Position numbers and translations under genes: made by a program. Positions 8,629 to 54,289 of a DNA stretch of 54,289 bases are shown here, in pieces. The notes below the pieces were generated by a model. The model was not told the origin of the DNA. It saw only the letters and a list, made by a program, of their open reading frames with translations, and ran no database searches. The stretch is taken from assembly GCA_021804655.1 (NCBI GenBank), contig JAJZHE010000002.1, forward strand, positions 1-54,289, given 5' to 3'. Every line of letters begins with the position of its first letter. Position 1 is the first letter of the stretch. Origin of the DNA: Acidobacteriota bacterium (GTDB lineage Bacteria; Acidobacteriota; Terriglobia; Terriglobales; Acidobacteriaceae).

Positions 8629-8696
8629 TCTGGATGATTGTAGAGCAGAGGACGCGCCGTTGTTTCGCTGACTCGAAACCGTCGCGATCTGGACAG

Positions 8697-9506: not shown

Positions 9507-10046
9507 TTATGACGCTTCCTCGGGCATCAGGCAGATGTCGGGCAGATTGCGATAGCGCTCGGCAAAATCCATGCCGAAGCCGATGACGAAAAGATTGGGA
9601 ATGGAGAAGCCGACATAATCCGCTTCGATCGGCTCCAGTCGCCGCGACGGCTTGTCCAGCAGGGTGGCGATGCGCAGGCTTTTCGGATGGTGCTGGAGAA
9701 AGATCTTGCGCAGATAGGTCAGTGTGATCCCGGTGTCCAGAATATCCTCGACCACCAGAACGTGTTTGCCCTCGATCGGCTCGTCCAGGTCTTTGATGAG
9801 CTTGACGGCGCCCGAGGTGCGATTGCTTTTTCCGTAGCTGGAGACGGCGACAAAGTCGAAGGTCGCGTCCACATCGACCGCGCGCGCCAGATCGGCCAGA
9901 AAAGGAGCAGCGCCTTTCAGAACGCCGATCATGACGAGTTTTTCGCCTGCCAGATCGCGCGTGATCTGCGCGCCCAACTCCTGAATCCGCGCCGCAATCT
10001 GCTCACGCGTGAAGAGAATTTCCAGTCCGTGTTTGTCTGTTGCCAT
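9507..10046 (-). CDS. hpt: hypoxanthine phosphoribosyltransferase
   Basis: Type I phosphoribosyltransferase converting hypoxanthine/guanine plus PRPP to IMP/GMP. The 179-residue length is standard. The PRPP-binding motif VVEDILDTGITLT is at 98-110, and the flexible loop residues SSYGKSNRTSG are at 69-79. It is the first gene of the minus-strand run hpt-deoC-phosphatase-PNP-kinase and faces lgt across a 93-bp divergent region. The base released by the downstream phosphorylase is the substrate of this enzyme, so the neighbours form a coherent pathway. Confidence 0.96.
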   Translation of the reverse strand: MATDKHGLEILFTREQIAARIQELGAQITRDLAGEKLVMIGVLKGAAPFLADLARAVDVDATFDFVAVSSYGKSNRTSGAVKLIKDLDEPIEGKHVLVVEDILDTGITLTYLRKIFLQHHPKSLRIATLLDKPSRRLEPIEADYVGFSIPNLFVIGFGMDFAERYRNLPDICLMPEEAS

Positions 10047-10139
10047 GCGAATCAGTATCGCCTTTCGCGGGCATCGCCGCCAAATCGTACGCGTGCCAAT
10101 TTCGCCTCATCCACCTGCCGCCGTCTATACTTGCTGAGT

Positions 10140-10979
10140 ATGCTGCCGTATCTGCACATCGGATTTCACTTTGCTTTCCACCTTGGCGGACATTTCTTCC
10201 GCGTGGGTCCGTGGGATATTCCCACCTTTGGGCTGATGCTGTGGGTGGCGACCGTGAGCGGTGCGATGGTGCTCCATCTCAGTTTTCGCCGCGCGCACAT
10301 TCTGGATCGCCAGGGCGAGCCAGCCGATGCCGTGGGCATTGTGGCCATGGCCGTGGTCGCCGGCATCGTCGGAGCCAAGCTTTGGCACGTCCTCGATACG
10401 CCTGCCGATTTCCGCGCCGCGGGCTGGTCGGTGCTTTGGGCTACGGGTGGATTCGCCTGGTTTGGCGGACTGGTCGGAGGCATTCTTGCGCTGATCGTGC
10501 AGGGGCGCTCCGTTGGATTGTCCGCGCTGAAGACGCTCGATCTTGCCTCGCCGGCTGCGGCGGTCGGTTACGCCATCGGTCGCATCGGCTGCCTGACCAG
10601 CGGTGACGGCGATTACGGCATTGCCAGTCATCTTCCCTGGGCCATGGCCTTCCCCAATGGACTCGATCCCACGCCGCCTGGAGTGCGCGTCCACCCCACG
10701 CCACTCTATGAGTGCATTGTTGGACTGCTGATTGCCGCATGGCTGTGGAAGCGCTCCGCGCAGCAACTGCACCGCGTGGGCACGGGTGCGGTCGTGGGAG
10801 AGTATCTCGTCCTGACCGGCATCGCGCGTTTTCTGGTGGAGTTCATCCGCATCAATCCGCACATTTTGTGGGGACTGTCGAATGCGCAACTGGCCAGCAT
10901 AGGCTCGACGATTGTCGGAGTATTGCTGATGTTGCGAGCGCGTCCGGTTCATTCCAGGCAGGCATCCGCCACAGCCTGA
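10140..10979 (+). CDS. lgt: prolipoprotein diacylglyceryl transferase
   Basis: Inner-membrane enzyme that transfers diacylglycerol from phosphatidylglycerol to the lipobox Cys of prolipoproteins. The 279-residue protein has about seven hydrophobic segments and the N-terminal LPYLHIGFHF typical of Lgt. The usual signature (GRxGNFxNxE) appears in a variant form, GRIGCLTSGDGDYG, at about 147-160, followed by the conserved HPTPLYE. The start is ATG 10140. A TATACT box at 10126-10131 lies so close that a transcript from it would have almost no leader; this is a weak inference. It is convergent with the next oxidoreductase gene (10-bp gap). Confidence 0.9.
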   Translation: MLPYLHIGFHFAFHLGGHFFRVGPWDIPTFGLMLWVATVSGAMVLHLSFRRAHILDRQGEPADAVGIVAMAVVAGIVGAKLWHVLDTPADFRAAGWSVLWATGGFAWFGGLVGGILALIVQGRSVGLSALKTLDLASPAAAVGYAIGRIGCLTSGDGDYGIASHLPWAMAFPNGLDPTPPGVRVHPTPLYECIVGLLIAAWLWKRSAQQLHRVGTGAVVGEYLVLTGIARFLVEFIRINPHILWGLSNAQLASIGSTIVGVLLMLRARPVHSRQASATA

Positions 10980-37609: not shown

Positions 37610-38686
37610 TCAGGTGGGATAGGTGCGGCCTTTCCAGGAGACGCTGTGGCGGACGCGGTGCAGAAACCAGCTTCGTGTGAGGATGGAGGCAAAGAGCGGC
37701 AGAGCGAGCGGAGAGAGTGCGCAGTCGAAGACAGAGAAATGAGATTTGGCGACGCGAGCGTAAAAGCGCCAGAGAGTGCGCAGATCGAGCAGCGCGATGA
37801 GGAAGCCGGCCGTGAACCAGGGAACGCCGCGGATGGCAGAGTGCCAGTAAAGCGCGGCGAGAATGGGCAGCAGGAGAAGCAGGACGAGATCGAGGACGCG
37901 CCAGGCGGCGAGCGTGAGGCAGTTGCCGAAGAGCAGTGCCAGATTCTTGGTCCAGCCCTCGATCATCGCAGCGTTGGTGCGGTACATGCGCGTGGCGAGG
38001 GCGTCGGGCGCAGTACGGAAGCGCAGGCCGAGTTTTCGGCGTTTGATGATCGACGCTAGTTCGACGTCTTCCAGGATGGAGCTGCGCACGGCTGCGTGAC
38101 CGCCGATTTCACGATAGGCAGTGGCGCGAAAGAGCATGAACTGTCCGTTGGCGGCGGCCAGACGCAGGGCGGGATCGGAGACTTTGGCGGGCGGATAGGC
38201 CAGCGCAAGTTCCGCGAAGACCAGCGGCATGAGCGCGCGCTGGGCAAGGCCGGAGACGAGCTGGTGTGGGGAATAGGAGAGCAGGCCGACGGAGTGCTTT
38301 TCGGCTTCATGGAGTGCGCGGCGCAGGCTGCCCGGCTGGTGCACGGTGTCAGCGTCGGTGAAAAGCAGCCATTCTCCGCGTGCGCGCTGGGCTGCGGAGT
38401 GGCAGGCGTTGGCTTTACCAGTCCAGCCGGTGGGCAGCGGGTCAACATCAAGCAGAGTGACGCCGGGGATGGATTGGGCGATCGAGCGCGTCGCATCGGT
38501 GGAGCCGTCATCGACGAGGAGCAGCTCCCAATCGACGCCGAGAGCGAAGATGGATTCGGACTGGCCGACGAGCGAGTGGAGACAGGCGGCGATGCAGTCG
38601 GCTTCATTGCGCGCGGGAACGATGACGGAGAGCAGACAGGGGGATGTCAGGGTCTCAGTCGGTGTGAGGATGCGCTCCGTGCTCAT
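37610..38686 (-). CDS. family 2 glycosyltransferase with C-terminal membrane segments
   Basis: A 358-residue membrane-associated GT2. The nucleotide-sugar domain shows LLSVIVPARNEADCIAACLHS, VDDGSTDAT, the LFTDADT (DxD) motif and the later SSILEDVELA acceptor motif (ED). Three hydrophobic segments follow residue 255 (LLLLLLPILAALYW and after). The layout resembles HpnB/CrtQ-type and carotenoid or hopanoid glycosyltransferases, but the acceptor is unknown. It is transcribed toward the PTPS pair with a 117-bp gap and diverges from the TlpA-like gene. Confidence 0.88.
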   Translation of the reverse strand: MSTERILTPTETLTSPCLLSVIVPARNEADCIAACLHSLVGQSESIFALGVDWELLLVDDGSTDATRSIAQSIPGVTLLDVDPLPTGWTGKANACHSAAQRARGEWLLFTDADTVHQPGSLRRALHEAEKHSVGLLSYSPHQLVSGLAQRALMPLVFAELALAYPPAKVSDPALRLAAANGQFMLFRATAYREIGGHAAVRSSILEDVELASIIKRRKLGLRFRTAPDALATRMYRTNAAMIEGWTKNLALLFGNCLTLAAWRVLDLVLLLLLPILAALYWHSAIRGVPWFTAGFLIALLDLRTLWRFYARVAKSHFSVFDCALSPLALPLFASILTRSWFLHRVRHSVSWKGRTYPT

Positions 38687-39809: not shown

Positions 39810-40874
39810 TTATTTGTATTCGATCAGAGTGCGGCGGCGCGCAAGCAAGCGGTCGCTGAACCAGGTGAGCTGGCCGAGCAGAAGCGGAATCTGCTGGAAC
39901 TGCGAGTGGATGCCGTAGAAAAACAGCGTGAGGCGCGATGCGCTGCGATGGCGATAGCGCCAGGCGGAGCGCATGCAGACGGCTGCGAAGAGCGCAAGCC
40001 AAAGAGCCGAGATCGTCGCAGCCCGGATGGGATGGTGCTGGAAGGCAGACCATGTCGCGCCAGCAAAGGCGATGGCCAGCGTGAGCAGCCAGAAGGAGCC
40101 GCGCAGAAGGTTGCGGCGGGAGTCGCCGAACCAGAATCGCTCGGGCGTGTGTCGGAAGCGCTCAGCGACATCGGCATAGGCGTAGCCGGAGCGGCGCATA
40201 CGCGCCCAGTACTGCGAGAAATAGAGAATGCCAAGGTCGTGGGTGGTCATCAGGCGGTTGAGCTGAAGGTGACGCCAGCCGAGTGACTGCATGCGATGAG
40301 ACAACTCAGGATCTTCGCCGGCAATGAGGGTGTCGTCGTAGCCACCTGAGGCTTGAAGCGCGGTGACGCGAATGAGTGCGTCGCCGCCAAAATGAGCGTT
40401 CTGGTGCGGGTCCTGGAGCCAGTCGAGGGCCAGGAGAGCGGTATAAATCGACTGCTGCGGGTTGGATTCGATGCGCAGGCCGAAGACGGTGGCAATGGCA
40501 GGATCCGGGACGGCTTGAGCGAAGGCGGCGGATAGGAAATCGGGATCGAGCGCGGTGTCGCCATCGAGGAACATGATCCAGTCGACGGGGTGAAGTTCGA
40601 GTGCGGCATGCCAGCCGATGTTGCGTCCGCGTGCTGCGGTCCATGGGCCGGTGGGCAGAGCGATGACATGAGCACCGAGCGAGCGGGCGAGTTCCAGACT
40701 GTTGTCGGAGGAGTTGGAATCGACGTAGATGGTGACCACAGGATGGATATTCGGAGGCAGCGCGAGGGATTGGACCGAATGCAGACAAGTGCGCAGGCGC
40801 TCACCTTCGTTGCGTCCGATGATGACGACGGCGAGACGCTGCGGGGGTGAGGGATTGCCGGTGGCCTCATACAT
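39810..40874 (-). CDS. family 2 glycosyltransferase (polysaccharide cluster)
   Basis: A 354-residue GT2 with a membrane-associated C-terminus. Motifs visible are LAVVIIGRNEGERLRTCLHS, YVDSNSSDNS, the DxD in MFLDGDTALD and AGEDPELSHRM (ED acceptor motif). Two hydrophobic segments follow about residue 265. It is the third gene of the minus-strand run GT4-GT2-GT2 (84 bp after the preceding one). The substrate is unknown; context suggests assembly of a surface glycan. Confidence 0.88.
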   Translation of the reverse strand: MYEATGNPSPPQRLAVVIIGRNEGERLRTCLHSVQSLALPPNIHPVVTIYVDSNSSDNSLELARSLGAHVIALPTGPWTAARGRNIGWHAALELHPVDWIMFLDGDTALDPDFLSAAFAQAVPDPAIATVFGLRIESNPQQSIYTALLALDWLQDPHQNAHFGGDALIRVTALQASGGYDDTLIAGEDPELSHRMQSLGWRHLQLNRLMTTHDLGILYFSQYWARMRRSGYAYADVAERFRHTPERFWFGDSRRNLLRGSFWLLTLAIAFAGATWSAFQHHPIRAATISALWLALFAAVCMRSAWRYRHRSASRLTLFFYGIHSQFQQIPLLLGQLTWFSDRLLARRRTLIEYK

Positions 40875-40958: not shown

Positions 40959-42005
40959 TTACCAGGGATGGGGTGGACTGATGCGTCCGCCGTGGGTATC
41001 GCGCCAGGCCTGACGCATGAGCGCGATGAGTTGGAGTGCGTGATGGGCGCGGGTGCGCCGCTGGGGGCTGCTGCTCCAGCGGTTGCGCAGCCAGCGAAGG
41101 CCGTAGATGGCCAACTCCAATGCCGCGGCTCCCCAGACCTGAAAACTGTGCCACTTGCGGTAGTAGAGCAGAGTGCTGCGCATGCGCCAGAGAACAACCT
41201 GATGGCTGGGGGGCGCGTCCTGTCTGGAGTTGATGGAAGTCGCGCTTTCGCCACCGATGTGGACGACGGAGTATTCGGGCGAGTAAACGACATGCCAGCC
41301 GTGACGTATGGCGCGTTTGCAGAGATCGACCTCTTCGACGTAGAGAAAGAAACGCTCATCGAAGAGACCGATCTCTTCCAGCAAAAGTCGGCGGATGAGC
41401 ATGAAGGCGCCGGGAATCCAGTCCACGCGAACTGGGCGACAAGCGCCTTCCCACTTGCGATCGAGGCCGCCGAATCTGCGTCCCCAGGAGCGGTTGTGCG
41501 GGAAAAGATGAGGCAAGCCGAGCATGACGCAGGCGTCGCGCCAGAGGGTGTGAAAACGACGCGCCGAGGGCTGGCGGGAGCCGTCGCGGCTGACCTGTGC
41601 GATGCCCAGAATGCCGATGTATGGATTGGCTTCCATGTCCTGGAGCAGGTTGGAGAGGACAGGGTTTTCAAGAAAAGCGTCGGAGTTGAGCAGCAGAAGA
41701 TATTGCCCGCGCGAGGTGAGCAGCGCGAGATTGTTGGCTCCGCCAAAGCCAAGATTGACCGGGCTGCGAAGCAGATGGACGTTGGGGAAAAAACGTTCGA
41801 CCATCTCCGCGGAGCCGTCGGAGGAGTTGTTGTCGATGACGAGAATTTCAGAGGTGAATCCGAAGTTGGCGATGCGTTGCAACTCGGCCTGCGTACGCTC
41901 CAGACAGTAGCGCAGCGTCTCGCGTGTGTTGAAGGAGACAATGACGACTGAGACGGTGAGTGGCGGCTGCTGAAGCGGAGAAAGCGCGGGCGCGGAATTA
42001 CGCAT
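40959..42005 (-). CDS. family 2 glycosyltransferase (rhamnosyltransferase-like)
   Basis: A 348-residue GT2 resembling WbbL/RfbF-type dTDP-rhamnosyltransferases: TVSVVIVSFNTRETLRYCL, VIDNNSSDGS, NLGFGGANN, LLLLNSDAFL and the acceptor-side FDERFFLYVEEVDLC. ATG 42005 overlaps the stop of the upstream GT4 by 8 bp (ATGCGTAA), so the pair is translationally coupled. The sugar specificity is a family-level guess only. Confidence 0.88.
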   Translation of the reverse strand: MRNSAPALSPLQQPPLTVSVVIVSFNTRETLRYCLERTQAELQRIANFGFTSEILVIDNNSSDGSAEMVERFFPNVHLLRSPVNLGFGGANNLALLTSRGQYLLLLNSDAFLENPVLSNLLQDMEANPYIGILGIAQVSRDGSRQPSARRFHTLWRDACVMLGLPHLFPHNRSWGRRFGGLDRKWEGACRPVRVDWIPGAFMLIRRLLLEEIGLFDERFFLYVEEVDLCKRAIRHGWHVVYSPEYSVVHIGGESATSINSRQDAPPSHQVVLWRMRSTLLYYRKWHSFQVWGAAALELAIYGLRWLRNRWSSSPQRRTRAHHALQLIALMRQAWRDTHGGRISPPHPW

Positions 42006-43296
42006 GGGACGCAAACTCCGGTGAGGCAGCGGCACAGAGCGCATGGAGATGCTCGGCGAGCAGATCGAGGTTGCGTTCGAGATTGTATTGTTCGGCGATG
42101 GTCTGGTGAGCGGATTCGGCCAGGCGGCGATGGAGCGCTTGGTCGTGGAGCAGTTGCTGCATGGCGGCGGTGAGCGCGGAGACGTTGCCAGCGGGGACAA
42201 GCAGGCCGTTTTCGCCGGAGTGGATCAGCTCCGGAATGCCGGCGATGAAGGTGGAGATGCACGGAACGCCGAGCGCCATCGCTTCCATGAGCGCGACGGG
42301 AAGTCCTTCGGCAAAACTGGCGAGGACGAAGAGGTGTGCGCGGGCGACGCGGTCCAGCGTGGAGGCGTGATTGAGCGCGCCGGTCCACTCCACTTGAGCG
42401 GCGATGCCGAGCGATGAGGCGAGCGCGTGAAGCGCTTCGCGGTCAGGGCCGTCGCCGATAAAGACCAGGCGCAGTCGCTCGCTCTGCGGCGGAAGCGCGG
42501 CAAAGGCTTGAAGCAGAATACGCTGGCCTTTGGCGGAGACGAGTCGGCCGGTGCAGAGGATTTCCAACGGACGTGATGGCAGGCTGCGCGGCTGGGCAAG
42601 TAGTTCAGGCTGGACGCCGAGGCGGATGACGAAGGTTTTGGTTTCGGCTTCGGGCGCAATGCGCAGAATCTGGCTGCGTGTGAAGTCGCTGATGGCAAAG
42701 ATGCGGTCCACGGCGAGAATTTTTTCGCGCAGCCAGGCCGATGCTTGATCGTGGAATTCTCCTGGCCCGTGAAGCGTGAGCGACCAGGGAAAACGCCATG
42801 CGCTCGCGGCCAGCAACGCCACGCTGGAGACCGGTCCGCCGAAGTGGACGTGCAGGTGCGTGAGGCTGTTGCGGCGCATCCATCGACCCAGCAGAAGCGC
42901 CTCTGCCAGATAAGCCAGCCGCAGAGACCATGCAATCGAGGAACGCGGCATGGTGGCGGCGGCGCGGAGACCGCGGAAAACGACAATGGGATGGGTGAGC
43001 AGCGCGGCGAATACGGAAGCGATTCTGCTGAGCCATGCAGCGGAGGTGCGCGGCGGCTGGAGATAAAAGGTGGCGGAGGATTCCTGCTGCTCTTCGTCAG
43101 GAAGCTGTGCAAAGGGGCGATCTGGAGGGTTGATGGAAGCGGTGTGAATCTGGAATCCACGCGCGCGGAGAGCGACGATTTCGCGCAGGAAAAAAGTGTG
43201 GGAGATGGCGGGATAAACGCTGAGCAGATAAGCCAGACGCGGAGAAGAAGCAGAAGACGTGCGTGAATCCGAAAGCAGCGAAGAGCGGTCGATCAA
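41998..43296 (-). CDS. family 4 glycosyltransferase
   Basis: A retaining GT4 of about 432 residues, cytoplasmic or peripheral. The N-terminal Rossmann domain begins PRLAYLLSVYPAISHTFFLRE, and HVHFGGPVSSVA lies in the middle. The donor site has CTGRLVSAKGQRILLQAFA and the ExE motif FAEGLPVALMEAMALG. No ATG or good ribosome-binding site precedes the conserved part. The TTG at 43296 is the most upstream usable start I see, but it lies only about 13 bases after a TATTAT box. The true start may therefore differ, or the message may have almost no leader. First gene of the GT4-GT2-GT2 run. Confidence 0.85.
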   Translation of the reverse strand: MIDRSSLLSDSRTSSASSPRLAYLLSVYPAISHTFFLREIVALRARGFQIHTASINPPDRPFAQLPDEEQQESSATFYLQPPRTSAAWLSRIASVFAALLTHPIVVFRGLRAAATMPRSSIAWSLRLAYLAEALLLGRWMRRNSLTHLHVHFGGPVSSVALLAASAWRFPWSLTLHGPGEFHDQASAWLREKILAVDRIFAISDFTRSQILRIAPEAETKTFVIRLGVQPELLAQPRSLPSRPLEILCTGRLVSAKGQRILLQAFAALPPQSERLRLVFIGDGPDREALHALASSLGIAAQVEWTGALNHASTLDRVARAHLFVLASFAEGLPVALMEAMALGVPCISTFIAGIPELIHSGENGLLVPAGNVSALTAAMQQLLHDQALHRRLAESAHQTIAEQYNLERNLDLLAEHLHALCAAASPEFASHA

Positions 43297-43308
43297 AGTG
43301 TGGTCAGT

Positions 43309-43338
43309 ATAATATGCCTTCGAGTGCGTGGGGCGGCA
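43309..43338 (-). promoter_or_regulatory. candidate promoter of the GT4 run
   Basis: On the minus strand TTGCCG (43338-43333), 18 bp, TATTAT (43314-43309). The same AT core reads TATAAT at 43308-43313 on the plus strand and could serve the divergent lipoprotein gene, but no plus-strand -35 is evident. Confidence 0.35.
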
Positions 43339-43356
43339 AAGCAGAGATGAGGCAGA

Positions 43357-45735
43357 ATGCAGGGTGAGAACAGGAAGCGCGGTGTGAAGACGATAGGGAC
43401 GATGCTGGCGGCTTGCGCGGCGATTCTGGCTGCGATGGCCTGTGGGAGCAGCAGTGGAACAAAAGCGGCAGGTGGCGTGACGCGCGTACAGATGACCGAG
43501 GATGTAATTGAGCCGCATGTAACGCGGCCGGGAATCAACCTGGGCGAGCAGAATTTTTACGATTCGGGGCAGATGCTGCGCAATCTGGTGGGTCGGAATC
43601 CGGGGTTTGAAGGGATGGAATTTCGCTCGGTGGTGCACTGTGATCGCGAGCAGGATGTCTGTACGGAGACGATCGGCGGCGTACAGTGGCCGACGGGATT
43701 CTGGGACGGCGGCATCTATGAAGCGATGGTGCGAAGGCAGCCGGGCGCGACAGATGTCTTTGTACCTGCGGCAGCGAACGGACGGATCGGGCAGAGTATG
43801 CCGACTGCGGATGGCTTTCGCGTGGAGCCGACCAGCGGCAGTGCGGCGATGGAGCCGGGCGAGTGGGTCAGGTTGAGCAAGGATTTTCCCGGTGATCCGG
43901 CAGCGGGATGGTGGACGAGCCTCCATGGTGGAGCGCGGCTGAGCGCGGAGCGCGGGGATCTTTCGCCGGAGACCGAGGGACGGCAGGCGCTGCGCGTGGA
44001 AGCGGCGATGGCGGGACAAAGTGCGGAGGTTTCGTCGTACTTCGACTCAACGGACGGTCGCCGATTTTTGCAATTTCACGGGGAGTATCTGTTGCGTTTT
44101 CGTGCGAAGCCGCTGGCGGGCGCGGCAAGCCTGCATGTCGAGGTGGGACGCATGGGGCAGCCGGATTTTTTTGCGCAGGAGATCGCGCTGCGCAGCGGAT
44201 GGCAGGACTACGAGTACCGGTTTGCAGCAAAGGACGCGGGCCAGGCGGGAACGGCGAAGCTGAGTTTCACAATTGCTGGAGCGAGCGTGCTGCTGGACGA
44301 TGTTTCGTTGGAAGCGGTGCAGAATCCTGCTGTGCAGAACCCGACGGCGTTTCGCGATGAGGTGGTGGAGACGCTGCGCGCGCTGCATCCGGGCGTGCTG
44401 CGGCTGATGGCGGGCGAGCAACTGGGCGCATCGATGCAGACGCTGCTGGAGCCGCGCATGGCCCGAGAGCGTGTGGGATATTCGGTGTGGAAGGTAAGCG
44501 AAGAAGACGTGGCTGTGGGCGTGCCGGAGTTTCTGGAGTTGTGCCGTGCCGTGGGAGCCGAACCGTGGATTGTGATTCCGCTGAGCACCGACGAGCAGGA
44601 GGTAAAACTGCTCGCTGAGTATCTGGCAGGCGACAACGCGAGCAAGGGTGGGAAGCTGCGCGTTGCCGAGGGCCAGGCGGTTCCGTGGACAAACGTCTTT
44701 CCGCGCATTCATCTGGAACTGGGCAATGAGGCGTGGAACAGCATCTTTCATGGGGAGTCGATGGAAGATGCCGGCGCGTATGGAGCGCAGGCGGAGCGGG
44801 TGTTTGCGGCGTTTCGGCGTCAGGCGAGCGCATACTCCGGTGCGGATCGATTTGACCTGGTGGTGAATGGGCAGGCTGGCGTGCAGTCGCTGCCGGAGGC
44901 GCAGGACGCACTGGCGCTGAACGCGAGCGGCGTGGCGGATACGCTGGCGATTGCGCCCTACATGATGCATACGGTGGACAAGGGCGCGACCGATGCGGAA
45001 TTGTTTGACCCGCTGCTGGCCGAGCCGGAGTACTTTTCGACGAATGGCATGCTGGCTGCGGCGCGACGCGCAGCGGGCGGAAAACGCCTGGCAGTCTATG
45101 AGGTGAATCTGCACGCGACCGAAGGCGCGGCAAGCCAGGCGGCGCTGGATCGGCTGACGCCGTCTGCGGCCGGAGGCATCGCGGTGACGGACCTGATGCT
45201 GCGCATGAAGCGGGATCAGGGTGTGCGCGATGCGATGGTCTTCGGCCTGCCGCAGTACGAATTTCGCCGCAACGATGGCAAGCAGGTGCGGCTGTGGGGC
45301 GCTGTGGTAGATATGGGGCCGACGATGCGACGCAGACCATTGTTTCTGGCCGAGGAGATGCTGAATGAGGCAATCGCGGGCGATATGGTGCGCGTGACAA
45401 CGAGCGGAGCTGATCCGCGACACGCTGTGGCACCGGGCAACGACGGCGTGATGATGGCGTCGGCGCACGATCTGGATTTTTTCGGCTTCAGGAGCCGGGA
45501 TGGGCAGCACCTTCATCGCATTCTGGTGGCATATAACCTTTCACGGACGGTACCTCATGTCGTGCAACTGGAAGGCGTTGCGCGAGGAGCGATGATCCGG
45601 TGGAGTCGGCTTGGCGGCGATCCGGCGGCTTCCAATGAAGATTCTGAGCAGGTGAAGGCAGAGCATGGCGAGAATTCCGTGGAAAGCTTCAGCCTGCCAC
45701 CCTGCTCAATGACAGTGTTGAAGTGGGAGGAGTAA
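43357..45735 (+). CDS. predicted carbohydrate-active lipoprotein (glycosidase-like)
   Basis: A 792-residue exported protein. The hydrophobic N-terminus ends in a lipobox-like AAMAC. Residues about 160-325 look like a carbohydrate-binding beta-sandwich (FLQFHGEYLLRFRAKPLAG, SGWQDYEYRF). From about 340 a clan GH-A-like barrel follows, with LRALHPGVLRLMAGEQLG, IHLELGNEAWNSI (Asn-Glu acid/base candidate) and VYEVNLHATEG (possible nucleophile Glu). A beta-rich C-terminus ends it. It resembles GH51/GH39-type enzymes in outline; the exact family and substrate are uncertain. GAGG lies just before ATG 43357. Placed between two polysaccharide gene sets, it may trim or modify the glycan. Confidence 0.7.
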   Translation: MQGENRKRGVKTIGTMLAACAAILAAMACGSSSGTKAAGGVTRVQMTEDVIEPHVTRPGINLGEQNFYDSGQMLRNLVGRNPGFEGMEFRSVVHCDREQDVCTETIGGVQWPTGFWDGGIYEAMVRRQPGATDVFVPAAANGRIGQSMPTADGFRVEPTSGSAAMEPGEWVRLSKDFPGDPAAGWWTSLHGGARLSAERGDLSPETEGRQALRVEAAMAGQSAEVSSYFDSTDGRRFLQFHGEYLLRFRAKPLAGAASLHVEVGRMGQPDFFAQEIALRSGWQDYEYRFAAKDAGQAGTAKLSFTIAGASVLLDDVSLEAVQNPAVQNPTAFRDEVVETLRALHPGVLRLMAGEQLGASMQTLLEPRMARERVGYSVWKVSEEDVAVGVPEFLELCRAVGAEPWIVIPLSTDEQEVKLLAEYLAGDNASKGGKLRVAEGQAVPWTNVFPRIHLELGNEAWNSIFHGESMEDAGAYGAQAERVFAAFRRQASAYSGADRFDLVVNGQAGVQSLPEAQDALALNASGVADTLAIAPYMMHTVDKGATDAELFDPLLAEPEYFSTNGMLAAARRAAGGKRLAVYEVNLHATEGAASQAALDRLTPSAAGGIAVTDLMLRMKRDQGVRDAMVFGLPQYEFRRNDGKQVRLWGAVVDMGPTMRRRPLFLAEEMLNEAIAGDMVRVTTSGADPRHAVAPGNDGVMMASAHDLDFFGFRSRDGQHLHRILVAYNLSRTVPHVVQLEGVARGAMIRWSRLGGDPAASNEDSEQVKAEHGENSVESFSLPPCSMTVLKWEE

Positions 45736-46193: not shown

Positions 46194-47318
46194 ATGAAGC
46201 ATTCAGTTTCCGTGATGGGATTGCCACTGGCACCGGTAACGCTTGGGGAAGCGGTGAACCGGATCGACGCGATGATTGAAAGCGGCGAAACGCATCAGGT
46301 GGCGACGGCGAATCTGGATTTCTGGCTGAACAGCACGCGCGACGAGCATCTGCATCGGATTCTGGCGGGTTGCGAGATGGTGCTGGCTGACGGGATGCCG
46401 CTCGTGTGGGCTTCGCGCATGCTGGGGGATGCGCTGCCGGAGCGCGTGACGGGCGTGGACCTGGTGCCGCAGTTGATGGCAATGAGCGCGCGCAAGGGTT
46501 ATCGCGTTTTTCTGCTGGGTGGTCGCGAAGGAGTGGCGGAGCGTGCCGCAGAGATGTTTGAGCGCCAGTTCCCGGGCGTGCATATCTGCGGAATTTTTGC
46601 TTCTCCGGTGGCGTCTCTGGATGAGATGGACAACAGCGAGATGGTGGAGCGCGTGAAGGCTGCCAAGCCGGATCTGTTGCTGGTGAGCTTTGGAAATCCA
46701 AAGCAGGAGAAGTGGATATGGATGAACAAAAAGCGTATGGGGGTGCCGGTTTCCATTGGTATTGGCGGGAGTCTGGACATGCTGCTGGGCGATTTGAATC
46801 GTGCGCCACGGTGGATGCAGAAGACGGGTCTGGAGTGGGCGATGCGCCTGGCGCAGGAGCCGAAGCGTCTGGGGCCTCGCTACGCGCGGGACTTTGTGGG
46901 ATTGGTGACGAAGCTGCCACTGGCGTTGCTGGGTCGGCTGACCCAGGGCAAGGCGACCGAATCCGTGACGTGCCGACTGCAGGAGTCCGAAGAGGCCTTG
47001 CACTTGCATATTCAAGGGGATTTTGACGCTTCGCTGGCACAGGCGGTGGACGCGACCGTGGATCGCGCAGTCGAAGAAGGCAAGATGGTTTGCCTGCACA
47101 TGGGCGAGGTGAACCGGATGACGGCTGCGGGAGCGGGCCTGATGCTGGATTGCCGCAGGCGGCTGTATGATGCGGGTCTGGTCGTGAATGTGGTTGAGAT
47201 GACGCTTCGGCTGCGGACGCTGATGTATCAATGGGGTCTCAGCTCACTGTTTGGCACGCACGTTATGGTAAGCCGCATGCCTGCGCGGACACAGCCGGTT
47301 TGGGGCACAATGAAATAA
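46194..47318 (+). CDS. WecG/TagA/CpsF glycosyltransferase fused to a STAS-like domain
   Basis: A 374-residue protein. Residues 1-255 are a GT26 enzyme with ADGMPLVWASRMLG, PERVTGVDLVPQL, LLGGREGVAERAA and LLVSFGNPKQEKWIW; family members add ManNAcA, ManNAc or glucose-type sugars to a lipid-linked acceptor. After a short linker, residues about 263-358 follow the STAS pattern, with LHIQGDFDASLAQAVD and CLHMGEVNRMTAAGAGLMLD. The phosphorylatable Ser of STAS (usually DSSG) is replaced (MTAAG), so phospho-switching is unlikely. A GAGGCAGG site precedes ATG 46194. First gene of the export operon. Confidence 0.87.
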   Translation: MKHSVSVMGLPLAPVTLGEAVNRIDAMIESGETHQVATANLDFWLNSTRDEHLHRILAGCEMVLADGMPLVWASRMLGDALPERVTGVDLVPQLMAMSARKGYRVFLLGGREGVAERAAEMFERQFPGVHICGIFASPVASLDEMDNSEMVERVKAAKPDLLLVSFGNPKQEKWIWMNKKRMGVPVSIGIGGSLDMLLGDLNRAPRWMQKTGLEWAMRLAQEPKRLGPRYARDFVGLVTKLPLALLGRLTQGKATESVTCRLQESEEALHLHIQGDFDASLAQAVDATVDRAVEEGKMVCLHMGEVNRMTAAGAGLMLDCRRRLYDAGLVVNVVEMTLRLRTLMYQWGLSSLFGTHVMVSRMPARTQPVWGTMK

Positions 47319-47375: not shown

Positions 47376-48770
47376 GTGCACCTGAGCGAGACGATTCTGT
47401 TTGTGCCGGCGATCATCGCCGCAGCGGTGGTGTTGGTTGGCGGGGCGCGGCGCGGGTTTCTCTGGGTTTATCTGCCGACGCTGCTGCTGCTTCCCATGTA
47501 CTTCCAACTGCGTTTTCCTCATCTGCCGCCAATTTCATTTGTGGACATGGCCCTGCTGCCGGTGGCGGCGGCATTGATGATCGAGGGGTTGCCGGGATGG
47601 CGACTGCGCGCCATGGACGCACTCGTGATCGCGTTCGTGCTCTCCTGTGGATACTCCGAAGCCAGCGGCGGAACCATCCTGGATGGCGGTTTGCAGGTAT
47701 ATACCAACCTGATTGCGGTTGCGATTCCATACATGATGGGGCGGCAACTGATGGAGCCGCGCAAAGGTGCCAGGGAATCGGTTGCATGGCGGGCGCAGTT
47801 TGTGCGGATGTTTCTGGGATTGCTGACACTGGACGCAGCGATCGGGGTCTACGATTTCCTGAGTGGCAAGTCGAGCAGTCAGCGGATGTGGAAGGTGTTT
47901 TTCCCGGATCAGGTGGTGGAGTGGCCGGAGCAGATGCGATGGGGGTTCGGACGCATTCAGGGACCGTTTTCACAGGCGATTCTGGCGGGCATGATCTTCA
48001 CCATCGGGATTGCGTATTGCATGTGGATGCAACGCGCGGATCGAAGCTGGGGCAGGCGGCCGCTGACGACGACGTTGCGTCTGCGATGGCGCCATGTGGC
48101 GTTGGCGATGATGATTGCCGGACTGCTGATGACGCAGTCGCGTGGGCCGTGGATCGGAGCTTTGATCCTGTTTGCGATTCTTTGGCTGCCGCTGGCGAGT
48201 TCGTTTCGTCAGGCACTGGTGCTGGTGCTGCTGTTGTCGGCAGTGGGCGGCGTGGGAGCCTATCTCTATGGAAAGAAATATACGGCGGGAAGCCGCGAAC
48301 ATGCGCAGACTGTGGAGCAGGAAGACGCGATCTATCGGCGTGAGCTGATTGGGAATTACATGCCGTTGGTGCTGGAAAAACCACTGACGGGGTGGGGCGT
48401 TTCGTTTTATCCGTCCGTACGCGGACAGAAATCGATCGACAATGAATATCTGTTTCTGGCCGTAATTCAGGGAGTGCCAGGGCTGCTTTTGTTTGTGCTG
48501 ATGAGCCTGGGAAGCTGCGTGCGGGTCATCCGCCTGTTGCCGTATGCCGAGCGCGCCGATGACCGCTTTCTGTTGTATGCGCACCTGGCCGTGGTGGTGA
48601 GCCTTCTGGTGACGATGACGACGGTGTATCTGGGGCAGCAGGTGGAGCCGTTGTACTTTCTGGTGCTGGGATGGATGCAGGCGATGGACAGAGATCGGCT
48701 TGCGGTGAATTCAGAGTGGAGCAGGAAGCAGTTGCAGCGCAGGCAGTGGCTTGCGAGCGTGATGAGCTGA
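47376..48770 (+). CDS. polysaccharide polymerase / O-antigen ligase-like membrane protein
   Basis: A 464-residue inner-membrane protein with about ten to twelve hydrophobic segments and a large polar loop (around 290-340: KKYTAGSREHAQTVEQEDAI), the layout of Wzy polymerases and WaaL ligases. MTQSRGPWIGALILF matches the conserved S/T-R-G element of the family. Start GTG 47376 after a purine-rich stretch. It lies between the WecG-like and GT2 genes (57- and 6-bp gaps). In a Wzx/Wzy-type pathway it would polymerise the flipped repeat unit. Confidence 0.85.
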   Translation: MHLSETILFVPAIIAAAVVLVGGARRGFLWVYLPTLLLLPMYFQLRFPHLPPISFVDMALLPVAAALMIEGLPGWRLRAMDALVIAFVLSCGYSEASGGTILDGGLQVYTNLIAVAIPYMMGRQLMEPRKGARESVAWRAQFVRMFLGLLTLDAAIGVYDFLSGKSSSQRMWKVFFPDQVVEWPEQMRWGFGRIQGPFSQAILAGMIFTIGIAYCMWMQRADRSWGRRPLTTTLRLRWRHVALAMMIAGLLMTQSRGPWIGALILFAILWLPLASSFRQALVLVLLLSAVGGVGAYLYGKKYTAGSREHAQTVEQEDAIYRRELIGNYMPLVLEKPLTGWGVSFYPSVRGQKSIDNEYLFLAVIQGVPGLLLFVLMSLGSCVRVIRLLPYAERADDRFLLYAHLAVVVSLLVTMTTVYLGQQVEPLYFLVLGWMQAMDRDRLAVNSEWSRKQLQRRQWLASVMS

Positions 48771-48776
48771 AAAACG

Positions 48777-50009
48777 ATGCTGACGACACTGTGGAAACTG
48801 GCGGCAGGACTGGTGTGCGGGCTGAGCCTGCCGCTCTTTGCCGATCTGGCGATTGTCTTGCTGGGCAATGCGGTAGCCACGCTGCGCAGGCCGCCGCGAG
48901 GAGTTGCCAATCGGCAGTGGAATGGTCTGCTGGGCGTCGTGATTCCGGCGCACAACGAGGCGAAGATGATTGCGCGGACGGTGAAGTCGGTGGAGACCTC
49001 CGCCGATGCTGCGGTGCAGGGCTGCGATGGAAGCAGGCGCGCTGTGATGACAGTGGTGGCGCACAACTGCACCGATGGCACGGTGGAGTCGGCTCGTGAA
49101 GCAGGCGCAGAAGTGGTCGAGTTGCGAGACGACGGACGGGATGGAAAATCTGCGGCTCTGCGCGCGGGATTTGCTCATGCGCGCGGCTTCGGTTGTGATG
49201 CGATTGCTGTGATCGACGCGGATTCGATGGTGAACCTGAATTTTGTGGCAGCGATGGAATCGGCTTTGGCGTCTGGAAGCGAGGTGTTGCAATGTCGGTA
49301 TGAACAGACGGCATGCGATGGCGTGCCGGTCAGCGATGGGCAGCGGATGCGCATGCTGGCGTTTCGCGGGATGAATGTGGTGCGCGGGCGAGGACGCGCT
49401 GCGCTGGGATGGTCGAGTGGCATCTTTGGCAATGGATTTGTGTTGCGCCTTGCGCTGTTGGAGCGTGTGCCATACGAAGCACGGAGCATTGCCGAAGATT
49501 TGGAATATCACGCGGAACTGGTGGCGCAGGGCGGTGTGGTGCGCTGGGTGGATGCGGCGCGTGTGACGGCTGCGCTGGCTGATACGAAGGCGGCGCAGGA
49601 CAGCCAGGAAACGCGTTGGGAGGGTGGCAGGCTGCGCGTGGCGCGGACGGCTGGACCTCGGCTTCTGGGTGCTGCGTTGCGTGGAAATCTGCGAGCTGGC
49701 GAAGCGCTGCTGGCGGTGCTGAGCCTGCCATTTTCACTTGGCGTGGCGATGGCGCTGGTGAGCGTTGCGCTGCCCGTGGTGTGGAGTCGGGAATATGGGC
49801 TGGTGTGTATAGGAATCAGTGCGCTCTATGTGGCCGCAGCGGCGCAGATGGGTGAAGAACCAGCGAGAGAATGGCGTGCGTTGCGCGCGGCTCCGGCTTT
49901 GGCGCTGCGCAAACTGATGCTGGTGCCGAGGATTGTGGCGCAGGCAGGCAGACGCGCGGTGTGGGTGAGAACGGGACGGGAAAGCGCGGATGAAGGCAAG
50001 AAGGAATGA
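48777..50009 (+). CDS. family 2 glycosyltransferase of the exopolysaccharide operon
   Basis: A 410-residue GT2 with an N-terminal membrane helix (LAAGLVCGLSLPLFADLAIVLL) and hydrophobic C-terminal segments (about 305-350). Motifs: LGVVIPAHNEAKMIARTVKS, AHNCTDGTV, DxD in AVIDADSMV and the ED pair in SIAEDLEYH. This resembles EpsH/ExoM-like or poly-sugar synthases. It starts 6 bp after the polymerase stop and overlaps the flippase start by 4 bp, so it is co-translated with both. Confidence 0.88.
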   Translation: MLTTLWKLAAGLVCGLSLPLFADLAIVLLGNAVATLRRPPRGVANRQWNGLLGVVIPAHNEAKMIARTVKSVETSADAAVQGCDGSRRAVMTVVAHNCTDGTVESAREAGAEVVELRDDGRDGKSAALRAGFAHARGFGCDAIAVIDADSMVNLNFVAAMESALASGSEVLQCRYEQTACDGVPVSDGQRMRMLAFRGMNVVRGRGRAALGWSSGIFGNGFVLRLALLERVPYEARSIAEDLEYHAELVAQGGVVRWVDAARVTAALADTKAAQDSQETRWEGGRLRVARTAGPRLLGAALRGNLRAGEALLAVLSLPFSLGVAMALVSVALPVVWSREYGLVCIGISALYVAAAAQMGEEPAREWRALRAAPALALRKLMLVPRIVAQAGRRAVWVRTGRESADEGKKE

Positions 50010-51640
50010 TGGACGCTGAGCAGCAGACGAAGACAGAAAGCGCGCAGCCGGAAATAGAACGGCGCGAGCCTCCGCGGCTGCGAAAAAATGTGGTGACAAC
50101 GATCGGCGCGCGTGCGCTCTATATGATCACGCGCGTGGGCATTCCTCCATTTGTGCTGGCGCGGATCGGGCTGGAAGCGTACGGGCTGTGGACGACGATC
50201 TTCCTGCTGGTCTCCTATCTGGGGCTTTCGACTCTGGGAATCTCCAACGTCTACATCAAGTACGTGGCGGAGTATCACGCGCGGCGCGAGTACGACAAAG
50301 CGAATACGCTGCTTTCGACGGGGTTGTCGATCACCGTGCCGTTGTGTTCGGCGCTGTATGCGGCGATCTGGCTGGGATGGGGATGGGTGGCGAAGCTGCT
50401 GCATCTGCCGGCGTCGCACGCTGCGGACGGCAAGGAAGCTGTGCTGATTGTGGTGGGAATTTTCCTGGCATCGATCTCGCTGAATGTCTTTTCCGACACG
50501 CTGAACGGCATGCAGCAGATTGCGGCGAATCAGTACTTCTGGACGGCGGGATTTCTGGCCGAGTTTGTGCTGATTGTTGTGCTGGTGGGCGGTGGTCGCG
50601 GGATTCGTGGACTGGCGGAGGCCTATCTGGCGCGGACCGTGATCGAGGATGGGCTGAAGATGTGGTGGGCGTGGCGAAAGCTGCCGTGGCTGCATCTGTC
50701 TCCGCGGCTGGCGCGGCGCGCGGCGCTGAAGACGGTGATCCATTTTGGCGGCCTGGTGCAGTTCCAGAGCCTGCTGACGACGATGATCAACTCGATTGAG
50801 CGCATGCTGGCGTTGCTGCTGGTGAATGTGAGCGCGGCGGGGTTGATGGATTTTGCCAAGAAGTGGCCGCAGTCGTTTTCCAGCATTCCGATGGCGTTTT
50901 TTGCGGCATTTCTGCCTGCTGCGTCGCACCTGGAGGCGTCTTCGGATGCGGGGACGAAGCAGAAGAACCTGAGCGATTTCTATCTGCGCGGTGCGCGTTA
51001 TTCCAACCTGTGCACGGCCTATTTCTGCTCGATGATGGCGCTGTGGACGTATCCGATCCTGCACGTGTGGCTGGGGGCGAAGATGCCGATGCCCGGCGTG
51101 CTGACGATGTTGTTTTTTGCTTTCAGCGTTTCGATGCAATTCCACATGCTCACGGGTCCGGGAACGTCGATCCTGCGCGGGATGGGGATGGTGTGGGAAG
51201 AATTTTACTACTCAGTTCCCAACCTCATTTTTCTTGCCGTCACGGTGCCTCTTTCCTATCTATACTTTGAAGCATGGACGACACTAGGAATCGGTGTGGC
51301 AGTTGCAGCGGCCACAATTTGTTCGGCGTGCGTCCTGATGGTGCGCGTGATCTTTGTGCTGCGTGTGAGTGCTGGCGCGTATGTGAAGCAGGTGCTGCTG
51401 CCAGGGTGCGTGCCGTATGCGTCGGCAGCGCTGCTGGCGTGGCCGGTGTGGTGGACGACGGTGCGGCTGGGTCGTTGGACGGGCGCTGGAGTGGTGTTGG
51501 CGGCGGGCGCGCTGCATGGCGCAATCATGATGGCGCTGCTGTATGGAAGCGCGCTGAACGCTCAGGAAAAGCAGCAGGTGAGCCGGATTCCGACGCTTGT
51601 CGGCAGATGGCTGCAAAGCGCGCGGACGGCGGCGCAGTGA
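50006..51640 (+). CDS. Wzx-type polysaccharide flippase
   Basis: A 544-residue inner-membrane protein of the MOP/MATE-like polysaccharide exporter superfamily with around twelve hydrophobic segments. The N-terminal TIGARALYMITRVGIPPFVLARIG and LGLSTLGISNVYIKYVAEY are typical. It is expected to flip lipid-linked repeat units across the membrane. ATG 50006 overlaps the GT2 stop (ATGA); a second ATG at 50009 is better spaced from AAGG. It overlaps the next gene by 4 bp (GTGA). Confidence 0.88.
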   Translation: MMDAEQQTKTESAQPEIERREPPRLRKNVVTTIGARALYMITRVGIPPFVLARIGLEAYGLWTTIFLLVSYLGLSTLGISNVYIKYVAEYHARREYDKANTLLSTGLSITVPLCSALYAAIWLGWGWVAKLLHLPASHAADGKEAVLIVVGIFLASISLNVFSDTLNGMQQIAANQYFWTAGFLAEFVLIVVLVGGGRGIRGLAEAYLARTVIEDGLKMWWAWRKLPWLHLSPRLARRAALKTVIHFGGLVQFQSLLTTMINSIERMLALLLVNVSAAGLMDFAKKWPQSFSSIPMAFFAAFLPAASHLEASSDAGTKQKNLSDFYLRGARYSNLCTAYFCSMMALWTYPILHVWLGAKMPMPGVLTMLFFAFSVSMQFHMLTGPGTSILRGMGMVWEEFYYSVPNLIFLAVTVPLSYLYFEAWTTLGIGVAVAAATICSACVLMVRVIFVLRVSAGAYVKQVLLPGCVPYASAALLAWPVWWTTVRLGRWTGAGVVLAAGALHGAIMMALLYGSALNAQEKQQVSRIPTLVGRWLQSARTAAQ

Positions 51641-52677
51641 TCGCTCAACTCGTCCTGGAGTTTCATCAAACATTGAGAAGAGTGCTGCTGCTGTGTGTGG
51701 CGATCACGGGAATAGCGGCAGGCGCGCAGCAGACAAGCGTAAAAATGCTGCCAGCGGACTCCGGCAAGTTGACCGTGAGCGAAGAGCCGACGGTGGATGC
51801 GCTGCTGAGTGCGTTTGAAGCGGGGCCGGAAGACGAATATCGGCTGGGTGCAGGCGATGATCTGGAGATCGACGTGGCGGGCAGGCCGGAGCTGGCGCGC
51901 AAGGAGACGGTAGGTCCGGATGGCCGGATCACGTTGTCGTTGCCCGGTGAGATCAAGGTGGAGGGACTGACCAGGCGCGAGGCCGAGGCGGCAATTGAAT
52001 CGGCGTTGCGGCGCTATTATGTGGAGCCGTCGGTCTCGATTACGGTGGCGCGCTATGCGTCGAACCGAGTGCTGCTGCTGGGCGCTGTGCAGCATCCAGG
52101 CGAGGTGACGTTTGTTGGACAGCCGACGCTGCTGGCAGCGCTGGCCGGTGGTGGAACGCTGACGGCTGGCAGCAATAACGCAATCAACAAGACGCAGGAT
52201 TTGCCGGAGCGCTGCGAGGTTTTTCGCGGCGGCGACCGGATGGTGTGGGTGAATGTGAAGAAGCTGGTGGAGACGGGCAACAGCCTCGCAGATCTGCGTC
52301 TGAAGCGCGGAGATGTGGTCTTCGTGCCGAGTCCCGATCAGCGCTACGTAACAGTGCTGGGGCAGGTCGCGCATCCCGGCGCGATTCCCGTGACGGACGA
52401 GTCAACGATTGCTGAAGTGGTTGCGCTTGCGGGCGGACTGACGCCGGCGGCGGGCGGAAATCCGAAGCTGCACCTCTTCGATCCGGTGACGAAGACGCAG
52501 CAGGCGGTCGCATTCAAAGACCTGAAGCGTGCTACAAAGCGGCAGTTGCCGACGCTGCACGAAGGCAGCATTCTGTTTGTGCCGGAGAGCGGTGTGGCCA
52601 AGATCGGCTATGTGCTGCAGCAGTTCGGTGGAATCACGGACCTGGGAACACTGGTATTTCTGACCTATCATCCATGA
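51637..52677 (+). CDS. polysaccharide export protein (Wza family, SLBB domains)
   Basis: A 346-residue exported protein. A signal peptide (LRRVLLLCVAITGIAAGA) precedes a Poly_export domain (DEYRLGAGDDLEIDVAGRPE, then GPDGRITLSLPGEIKVEGLT). Two SLBB domains follow: VLLLGAVQHPGEVTFVGQPT and VTVLGQVAHPGAIPVTDEST. The signal has no lipobox Cys in E. coli Wza style. It forms the outer-membrane/periplasmic exit conduit together with the next gene. Start GTG 51637, overlapping the flippase stop; an ATG at 51607 is possible. Confidence 0.92.
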   Translation: MIAQLVLEFHQTLRRVLLLCVAITGIAAGAQQTSVKMLPADSGKLTVSEEPTVDALLSAFEAGPEDEYRLGAGDDLEIDVAGRPELARKETVGPDGRITLSLPGEIKVEGLTRREAEAAIESALRRYYVEPSVSITVARYASNRVLLLGAVQHPGEVTFVGQPTLLAALAGGGTLTAGSNNAINKTQDLPERCEVFRGGDRMVWVNVKKLVETGNSLADLRLKRGDVVFVPSPDQRYVTVLGQVAHPGAIPVTDESTIAEVVALAGGLTPAAGGNPKLHLFDPVTKTQQAVAFKDLKRATKRQLPTLHEGSILFVPESGVAKIGYVLQQFGGITDLGTLVFLTYHP

Positions 52678-54289
52678 CGGAAACGCGCGCGAAATCGACG
52701 GAGCCAGACTCAGCACGAGGAGTTGGCGGCGTCATCTCTGGCGTGGAACTGAATCGTATGCCTGAGGGTGAGCAGCCACTGATTCGGTTGCATCTGCGGC
52801 GTGCATTGCGCATGCGCGGGCGCTGGGTAACGGGGTTTGCGATTGCCGGATCTCTGCTGGCAGTGGCGTTTGTGCTGCATCGCAGGCCGATCTATTCAGC
52901 CACGGCGATGGTGTACGTTCCGCCTTCGCCGCAGCGGATTCTGCCCAATGGAATTCCCAACTGGCCGTATGATTCTCCAACGTATGAGATGCATATTCAA
53001 CAGCAGATCAACACATTTACGCGTGAGGATGTGCTGGCTGGAGCGCTGGCACGACTACGCGGAACGGGATGGCAGCGCGCCGGGGAAAACGATCAGTTGG
53101 CCGAGCGGCGGCTGGTCCATTCCTTTGTGGCGACCCGGGACGGAAACAGCTATCAGATTGCCGTGAAGGCACAGGCATCGACGGCGGAACTGGCTGCGAG
53201 GATGGCCAATGCCGTGGCTGCGAGCTATCTGGAGAATCAACGGCGGCAGGAAGAGTTTGGAGCGACGACGCGCATCAAACTGCTGCAGGACGAGCAGAAA
53301 CGCGTGCAGACACTGTTGGCCAGCGACCGGCAGGAACTGGAAGGAGTGAATCGACAGCTTGGAGTCGGCGCTATTACTCCGAGCACGCCGGACCCTTATG
53401 ACCAGGAGGTTTCCGACCTGAGGACGGAGCTGGCCAAGGCGCGCAGCGCGCACGACCTGGCGGCGGCGCAGTTGCTCTCCTCAGAGAGCGGCGCGTATAT
53501 CGGCGACACGGAGAATCAGGCGCAAAACGATCCGGGACTGATCAGTCTGAAGACGGGGTTGTATCAGAGACGCAGCGCGCTGATCGCGCAGATGGCCGGG
53601 TTGACTCTGCATCATCCGCTCTATAAACAGGACACGATCGAGCTGCAGCAACTGGACAAAGCTATCGACGATGTGACGCAGAAGCTGGAGGCGGCAGCGC
53701 GCGAGCGAATTGGGAAGAAGCTGGACGGAGAGGTGAAGACGACCGAAGACGAGGTGGAAAAACTGAGCGCAGAACTGGCGCGGGCGACGGTTGCGGCTGG
53801 CGATTCGACGCAGTATCTGCAACAGGCAAATGGGTTGAGCGCGGAGATTGACCGACTGCAGAAACGTTACGGAATGATTGACGAGCAGATGCACGACCAG
53901 ATGCTGCAACATGAGGCACCCAACGGCATTCACATTGCTGCGGAGGCAATCGTGCCGATCAAGCCCGATGCCTCGAAGACGCTGCTGGAGGCAGTGGCGG
54001 GCATTGTTCTCTTTGGGATGATGGGCTTGTGCGTGGCCATCGTGAGGAATCGGCTGGACCCGCTGATTTATGTGGCTGGCGATGTGGAAGAGGTCACTGG
54101 AGCAAAAGCGCTTGCAGTCGTGCCGGATGCAGCAGAGGTTTCCGCGCGGTACCGTGAGCAGACGCTGCTGCGTGTGGTGGCGGCTCTGGAAGATGCGCGC
54201 AGGAAACACGGCGCTCAGCGCTATCTGTTGCTGGGCGTTGCGCAGGAGACGATGGTTCAGGAAGTTTTCGAGCTTCTGAAACAGTGCCA
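52674..54289 (+). CDS. Wzz/Wzc-type chain-length and export co-polymerase (runs off the window)
   Basis: A polysaccharide co-polymerase of which 538 codons are visible. One membrane helix lies at about 51-69, and a Wzz-like N-terminal region (YSATAMVYVPPSPQ) follows. A long coiled-coil periplasmic domain spans about 170-420. A second helix is at 435-457 (LLEAVAGIVLFGMMGLCVAI), and the cytoplasmic part begins at VIYVAGDVEEVTGAKALAVV in outline. BY-kinases would next show a Walker A; the segment reached, RYLLLGVAQETMVQEVFELL, shows none. The ATG at 52674 overlaps the upstream stop by 4 bp (ATGA). Confidence 0.85.
   Translation, partial: MTETRAKSTEPDSARGVGGVISGVELNRMPEGEQPLIRLHLRRALRMRGRWVTGFAIAGSLLAVAFVLHRRPIYSATAMVYVPPSPQRILPNGIPNWPYDSPTYEMHIQQQINTFTREDVLAGALARLRGTGWQRAGENDQLAERRLVHSFVATRDGNSYQIAVKAQASTAELAARMANAVAASYLENQRRQEEFGATTRIKLLQDEQKRVQTLLASDRQELEGVNRQLGVGAITPSTPDPYDQEVSDLRTELAKARSAHDLAAAQLLSSESGAYIGDTENQAQNDPGLISLKTGLYQRRSALIAQMAGLTLHHPLYKQDTIELQQLDKAIDDVTQKLEAAARERIGKKLDGEVKTTEDEVEKLSAELARATVAAGDSTQYLQQANGLSAEIDRLQKRYGMIDEQMHDQMLQHEAPNGIHIAAEAIVPIKPDASKTLLEAVAGIVLFGMMGLCVAIVRNRLDPLIYVAGDVEEVTGAKALAVVPDAAEVSARYREQTLLRVVAALEDARRKHGAQRYLLLGVAQETMVQEVFELLKQC

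Follow-up and report, generated by a model that had tools for sequence, protein, structure and literature searches.

A GT26 glycosyltransferase fused to a STAS domain without the phosphorylatable serine in an acidobacterial exopolysaccharide locus

Introduction

What can a STAS domain do for a glycosyltransferase to which it is permanently joined, when its usual phosphorylation site is missing? The question is raised by an open reading frame in a 54,289-nt stretch of acidobacterial DNA (the window, meaning throughout the whole stretch analysed), in which an earlier note, made from the sequence alone, had seen a complete GT26 domain followed by a STAS-pattern domain with a lost serine. The acceptors of GT26 enzymes are lipid-linked and are used at the membrane; TagA is inactive as a dimer and becomes an active monomer on contact of its appendage with the membrane (PMC6493773). 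Diguanylate cyclases are among the enzymes under direct control of partner-switch STAS proteins (PMC8457831). For SypA and HmpV, two STAS proteins with a sigma-factor-independent effect on polysaccharide, no target is known; SypA of Vibrio fischeri is active in its S56A form (PMC4517449, PMC10120452).

Both domain families and the partner switching of enzymes were already known, as was, from the description in a review (PMC8256260), a STAS-glycosyltransferase protein in Anabaena. In a literature search that covered few subscription journals, no paper turned up on GT26-STAS fusions, on partner-switching genes linked to them or on the site being lost in Acidobacteriota.

Architecture and fold of the fusion protein

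The protein was searched against Pfam and modelled with AF2 using 41 fusion homologues. Glyco_tran_WecG (PF03808) was matched over residues 61-230 (E 7.9e-61, 205.2 bits against a cut-off of 27.4), while the C-terminal part, for which a domain search had been proposed, was matched above cut-off by both STAS_2 (PF13466; residues 271-349, E 1.1e-7, 32.4 bits against 29.2) and STAS (PF01740; residues 262-354, E 3.1e-7, 30.5 bits against 22.6). The model had a pLDDT of 90.9 and a pTM of 0.88, with low confidence in the final 16 residues only. Its STAS part showed the usual succession of elements, with strands at 259-264 and 268-277, a helix at 279-295, a strand at 298-309, a helix at 311-326, a strand at 331-334 and a helix at 338-346. 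Foldseek matched the front part to TagA (7mpk) with a TM by target of 0.95; for the back part it gave RsbV (6m36_B, TM 0.86 by target) and also SpoIIAA. The complete GT26 domain and the STAS domain behind it were therefore borne out by Pfam, model and fold comparison, which also ruled out a different fold for the C-terminus. A KH-domain match to this region fell below its cut-off. A pseudogene or frameshift was ruled out by orthologues from independent assemblies and by purifying selection.

Alignment with 7mpk placed T37, D65, R214 and R221 of TagA, the catalytic threonine and aspartate and the appendage arginines (residue roles from PMC6493773), at T38, D66, R218 and R225 of the fusion, so the transferase looks active. 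D66, R218 and R225 were invariant among the 41 fusions and T38 was kept in at least 90% of them. The membrane appendage precedes the STAS domain. The earlier note's "priming or early transferase" holds in its second half: by homology the enzyme would be early, of the second-sugar transferase type, and not a priming enzyme.

The exopolysaccharide locus

The features of the window are collected in Table 1. The fusion is accompanied by genes for Wzy, Wzx, export and chain-length functions together, the Wzx assignment being weak by Pfam, as in a Wzx/Wzy exopolysaccharide (EPS) locus. The downstream genes, from wzy to the wzz-like gene, mostly overlap or nearly so, and the EPS gene set around the fusion is kept across acidobacterial loci.

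Table 1. Features of the window, in order of position
Feature	Position	Strand	Remarks
GAF-GAF-SpoIIE protein	6799-8970 (longest form)	-	identity of 70-87% in related genomes; the window has neither a STAS nor a kinase gene linked to it
GT2 glycosyltransferase, same locus as the fusion	37610..38686	-
GT2 glycosyltransferase, same locus	39810..40874	-
GT2 glycosyltransferase, same locus	40959..42200	-
ORF with GT4 glycosyltransferase	41998..44019	-	domain in residues 368-647; true start inside the ORF
792-aa secreted protein, weakly arabinofuranosidase-like, no Pfam family	43357..45735	+	kept next to the fusion in many EPS loci of Acidobacteriota
GT26-appendage-STAS fusion protein	46194..47318	+	374 aa, ATG start
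GT26 (WecG/TagA/CpsF) catalytic core	46206..46808	+	residues 5-205; PF03808, alignment to 7mpk and invariant columns
GT26-family C-terminal appendage (membrane/active site)	46809..46949	+	residues 206-252; alignment, model helices 206-249; role from PMC6493773
STAS domain	46959..47261	+	residues 256-356; PF13466/PF01740 over cut-off, RsbV/SpoIIAA fold
MTAAG (phosphorylatable form: M-D-S-S-G), where STAS helix alpha2 starts	47118..47132	+	residues 309-313
Wzy-type O-antigen ligase/polymerase (PF04932), next operon gene	47376..48770	+	next to the fusion in most relatives as well
EpsU-like GT2 glycosyltransferase (EpsU of Myxococcus)	48777..50009	+
MATE-like membrane protein, probable Wzx flippase	50006..51640	+	PF01554 weak, below cut-off; operon place conserved
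Polysaccharide export protein (Poly_export + SLBB)	51607..52677	+
Probable chain-length protein of the Wzz/Wzc type, continuing beyond the window	52674..54287	+	gene at the equivalent place in locus L033 is PF02706

The missing phosphosite

By HMM alignment, T310-A311-A312-G313 of the fusion correspond to D57-S58-S59-G60 of SpoIIAA. The canonical site cannot be phosphorylated there, as had been claimed, but "a lost serine" understates the change, the aspartate and both serines having been replaced. A phosphorylatable antagonist of the SpoIIAA/RsbV kind carries a serine in D-S-S/T-G where this protein has T-A-A-G, and NCBIfam TIGR00377 (ant_ant_sig) was matched at 31.6 bits, below its cut-off of 53.45. 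In orthologues taken from independent assemblies the site is TAAG, TTTG, TIAG and others, and the absence of the site is thus neither chance nor an assembly error.

The acidobacterial group comprised 34 proteins, 33 of them with a STAS domain. None of these 33 has serine at position 58 (A in 21, P in 7, T in 3, I and V in one each); G60 is retained as glycine in 26 proteins of the group. In the first STAS domain of the Chloroflexota-type fusions serine stands at this position in 13 of 14, the remaining one, the single-STAS protein of L066, having cysteine. The corresponding count in Verrucomicrobiota is 30 of 31, and since the exception carries serine in its second STAS domain, all 31 proteins keep it in at least one. 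Cysteine at the phosphoserine position was noticed in two fusions outside the acidobacterial group (LDCSA in L054, 10001-11398; LDCNA in L066, 9932-11104). A 418-aa ORF in L302 (G107:C290) is a divergent GT26-STAS protein, with GSEKGQSW for GNPKQEKW and a D-A-R site, and represents a separate fusion lineage.

Unfused STAS domains of seven related acidobacterial genomes keep Ser58 in 18 of 25 cases, which argues that the loss is specific to the fused domain and not a property of the STAS domains of the phylum in general. The word "loss" depends, for want of a known root, on serine being what STAS domains commonly have at position 58.

If the phosphosite had instead shifted by one residue, T310 might be phosphorylated by one of the two RsbW-like kinases encoded elsewhere in the source genome. 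T310 is indeed 100% conserved in 19 close relatives and invariant in the window's own clade. In deeper acidobacterial fusions, however, G, E, D or N stands at that place, and both strong RsbW-like genes are already paired with an adjacent STAS gene (these two further STAS genes have the sites YIDSSG and YINSSG), so that a shifted site is considered very unlikely.

Distribution and origin of the fusions

The phylogenetic distribution, a check proposed at the outset, was followed in genome samples. GT26-STAS fusions were found in Acidobacteriota, Verrucomicrobiota and Chloroflexota, with one STAS domain in the acidobacterial forms and two in most of the others. Matches extending into the STAS domain were present in about 13 of 150 genomes of the same family as the source. 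Using the fusion profile, full-length clear matches were found in 5 of 297 genomes in the Acidobacteriota sample, roughly two dozen of 289 in the Verrucomicrobiota sample and about a dozen of 301 in the Chloroflexota sample. The extension is therefore a STAS domain in homologues of three phyla; neither of the two observations that the earlier note had named as counting against it, another fold or homologues whose extension lacks STAS similarity, was made.

In the GT-domain tree the fusions grouped apart from plain GT26 proteins, with 4 changes between the two states against a shuffled mean of 33.5. One of the four was due to L060, a fusion truncated by a contig end that was counted as plain; two were forced. 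The fusion arose or was lost once or a few times, and the tree is as compatible with a single origin as with more than one. A syntenic acidobacterial EPS locus (L301, G047:C1:3916600-3936500) has a GT26 gene at 9558-10598 without STAS and with wzy directly after it. This is a natural STAS deletion; the domain is dispensable there, and its role can thus be lost.

Other extended GT26 proteins were also seen. A verrucomicrobial protein (L056, 235-2436), judged by eye and with local profiles, apparently combines GT26 with a STAS-like region and a transferase of GT4 type, and two Phycisphaerales GT26 proteins (L091, 4774-6753; L097, 3028-5106) carry about 400 extra residues unrelated to STAS.

Partner-switching genes beside the fusion

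The search for HATPase and SpoIIE genes used models built locally and one single-sequence query; in three loci its results were checked with Pfam. The sample of loci held many near-copies, flanks of different lengths and some loci interrupted by contig ends, and the counts are to be read accordingly: STAS, SpoIIE and RsbW-like HATPase genes lay within a few kilobases of the fusion in nine of the 14 Chloroflexota-type loci, and of the remaining five L061 and L065 are cut by a contig end within about 1 kb downstream; at least a lone DSSG-type STAS gene was present in 14 of 31 Verrucomicrobiota loci, several of them with a HATPase-SpoIIE fusion protein; and no STAS, SpoIIE or RsbW-like gene adjoined the fusion in any of the 34 acidobacterial loci. 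In L277 the genes for a priming Bac_transf protein, GT26-STAS-STAS, NTP_transferase-hexapeptide-Bac_transf, STAS, GAF-SpoIIE and HATPase_c_2 follow one another on the same strand in an apparent operon, each overlapping the next or lying 5 to about 55 nt from it. Its third gene (7263-8963, minus strand) encodes a three-part protein of nucleotidyl transferase, hexapeptide repeat and priming sugar transferase within this Chloroflexota switch operon.

Fisher's test of the association between phosphosite and linkage gave p 3e-8, but it ignores relatedness and is not taken as proof; the independent changes are few (2-3 pairs), and a sign test was not significant. Serine is kept and the STAS, SpoIIE and RsbW-like set is often adjacent in the relatives, and the STAS domain there would therefore most likely receive a partner switch.

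Within the window there is no RsbW-like gene and no second STAS gene, so that the fusion has no linked pair of RsbW-like kinase and SpoIIE/PP2C phosphatase. The source genome is 86.9% complete, and an unlinked partner could be missing from the assembly. Docking of RsbW-like kinase or SpoIIE partners is well supported by the neighbourhoods of the serine-keeping relatives, but no such gene lies near the acidobacterial fusions.

The window does hold a GAF-GAF-SpoIIE protein, and the earlier note, which had placed it at 6799-8628 (short of the longest form in Table 1), speculated on a link with the fusion. That this phosphatase regulates the fused STAS domain is scarcely credible: the domain has no serine to dephosphorylate, the genes are about 37 kb apart, the SpoIIE orthologues in genomes G131, G102 and G008 lie on contigs other than that of the fusion, and the window lacks a kinase or second STAS. 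The link was rejected on these grounds.

STAS domains without serine occur in non-sigma roles, MlaB being an example. MlaB was among the profile and fold matches of the fused domain, which might then sense a ligand (a nucleotide, lipid or sugar nucleotide) and adjust the transferase. This is held to be distinctly unlikely, as no binding motif was found, the nearest folds are RsbV and SpoIIAA, which are not ligand sensors, and the gene linkage of the relatives indicates partner switching.

Selection on the acidobacterial STAS domain

The acidobacterial STAS domain is under purifying selection. In seven close acidobacterial pairs its dN/dS was 0.08-0.25 (0.04-0.17 for the GT core), and in comparisons of the window with L035-L037 it was 0.34-0.42; it has evolved at about twice the rate of the core. 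Its faster evolution would suit a relic that has lost its switch, is on its way out and has no present role, as would the joint absence of phosphosite and linked switch genes and the complete absence of the domain in the G047 locus. Against such decay stand the low dN/dS of the close pairs, which makes a docking role the likelier, a domain that is intact and confidently folded in the model, and the invariance in 19 relatives of G313, G315, R321, R322, G328, L329, W347, L352 and F353 among other residues; only one STAS-less case, moreover, was seen. A relic is thus thought unlikely.

Proposed mechanism

Our best reading, with moderate confidence, is that the protein is an early GT26 transferase of a Wzx/Wzy EPS operon, working on undecaprenyl-pyrophosphate-linked sugar, with a STAS domain fixed in cis that is switched in the relatives and serves in Acidobacteriota as a docking surface. 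The GT26 part would transfer sugar onto an undecaprenyl-pyrophosphate-linked acceptor, at the second-sugar step if homology is a guide. In Chloroflexota and Verrucomicrobiota the STAS domain would most likely receive the partner switch and so turn the transferase on or off post-translationally; by analogy with what is done in trans to diguanylate cyclases (PMC8457831), the switch would act on the enzyme itself in relatives that have the serine and the kinase and phosphatase. Lying directly after the appendage, the domain would be well placed to favour or hinder the membrane-appendage step upon partner binding. In the window's lineage the switch would have become fixed, and the STAS domain would most likely be a permanent, "dephosphorylated-like" docking surface through which the transferase stays together with a partner from the polysaccharide machinery.

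More tentatively, GT26-STAS proteins may form a general class in which a kinase/phosphatase pair controls an early EPS step through a STAS domain in cis, the acidobacterial members being locked in the unphosphorylated state. Were this true, a glycosyltransferase would be the suggested target of SypA and other free STAS proteins. A fused STAS-glycosyltransferase, with switch genes co-located in some phyla and none in another, is a testable candidate for post-translational action on an early committed sugar transfer.

Comparison with known systems

The fusion shares with TagA/TarA (5WB4, 7MPK; PMC6493773) the transferase fold, the catalytic T/D, the appendage arginines and a membrane appendage that completes the active site. 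TagA, however, is an enzyme of wall teichoic acid synthesis that lacks a STAS domain, whereas the fusion has one after the appendage and belongs to a Wzx/Wzy EPS operon. With the anti-sigma factor antagonists SpoIIAA and RsbV it has the STAS fold in common (TM about 0.7-0.86 by target), but these are free-standing and phosphorylated on serine, while the fused domain is joined to an enzyme and has D57, S58 and S59 replaced. A functional parallel is the SypA-SypE system, in which biofilm that depends on polysaccharide is controlled by a STAS protein at a level below transcription (PMC4517449, PMC10120452); SypA is a separate protein of 105 aa that keeps Ser56, in contrast to a STAS domain joined to a glycosyltransferase. 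In HsbA-HsbD, BgrV-BgrR and SiaC-SiaD (PMC8457831) a partner switch likewise acts directly on an enzyme and not on a sigma factor, although the STAS or STAS-like protein acts there in trans and the enzyme makes c-di-GMP. All4160 of Anabaena, as a review describes it (PMC8256260), also unites STAS and glycosyltransferase in one polysaccharide-related protein; by the same description its STAS domain is N-terminal.
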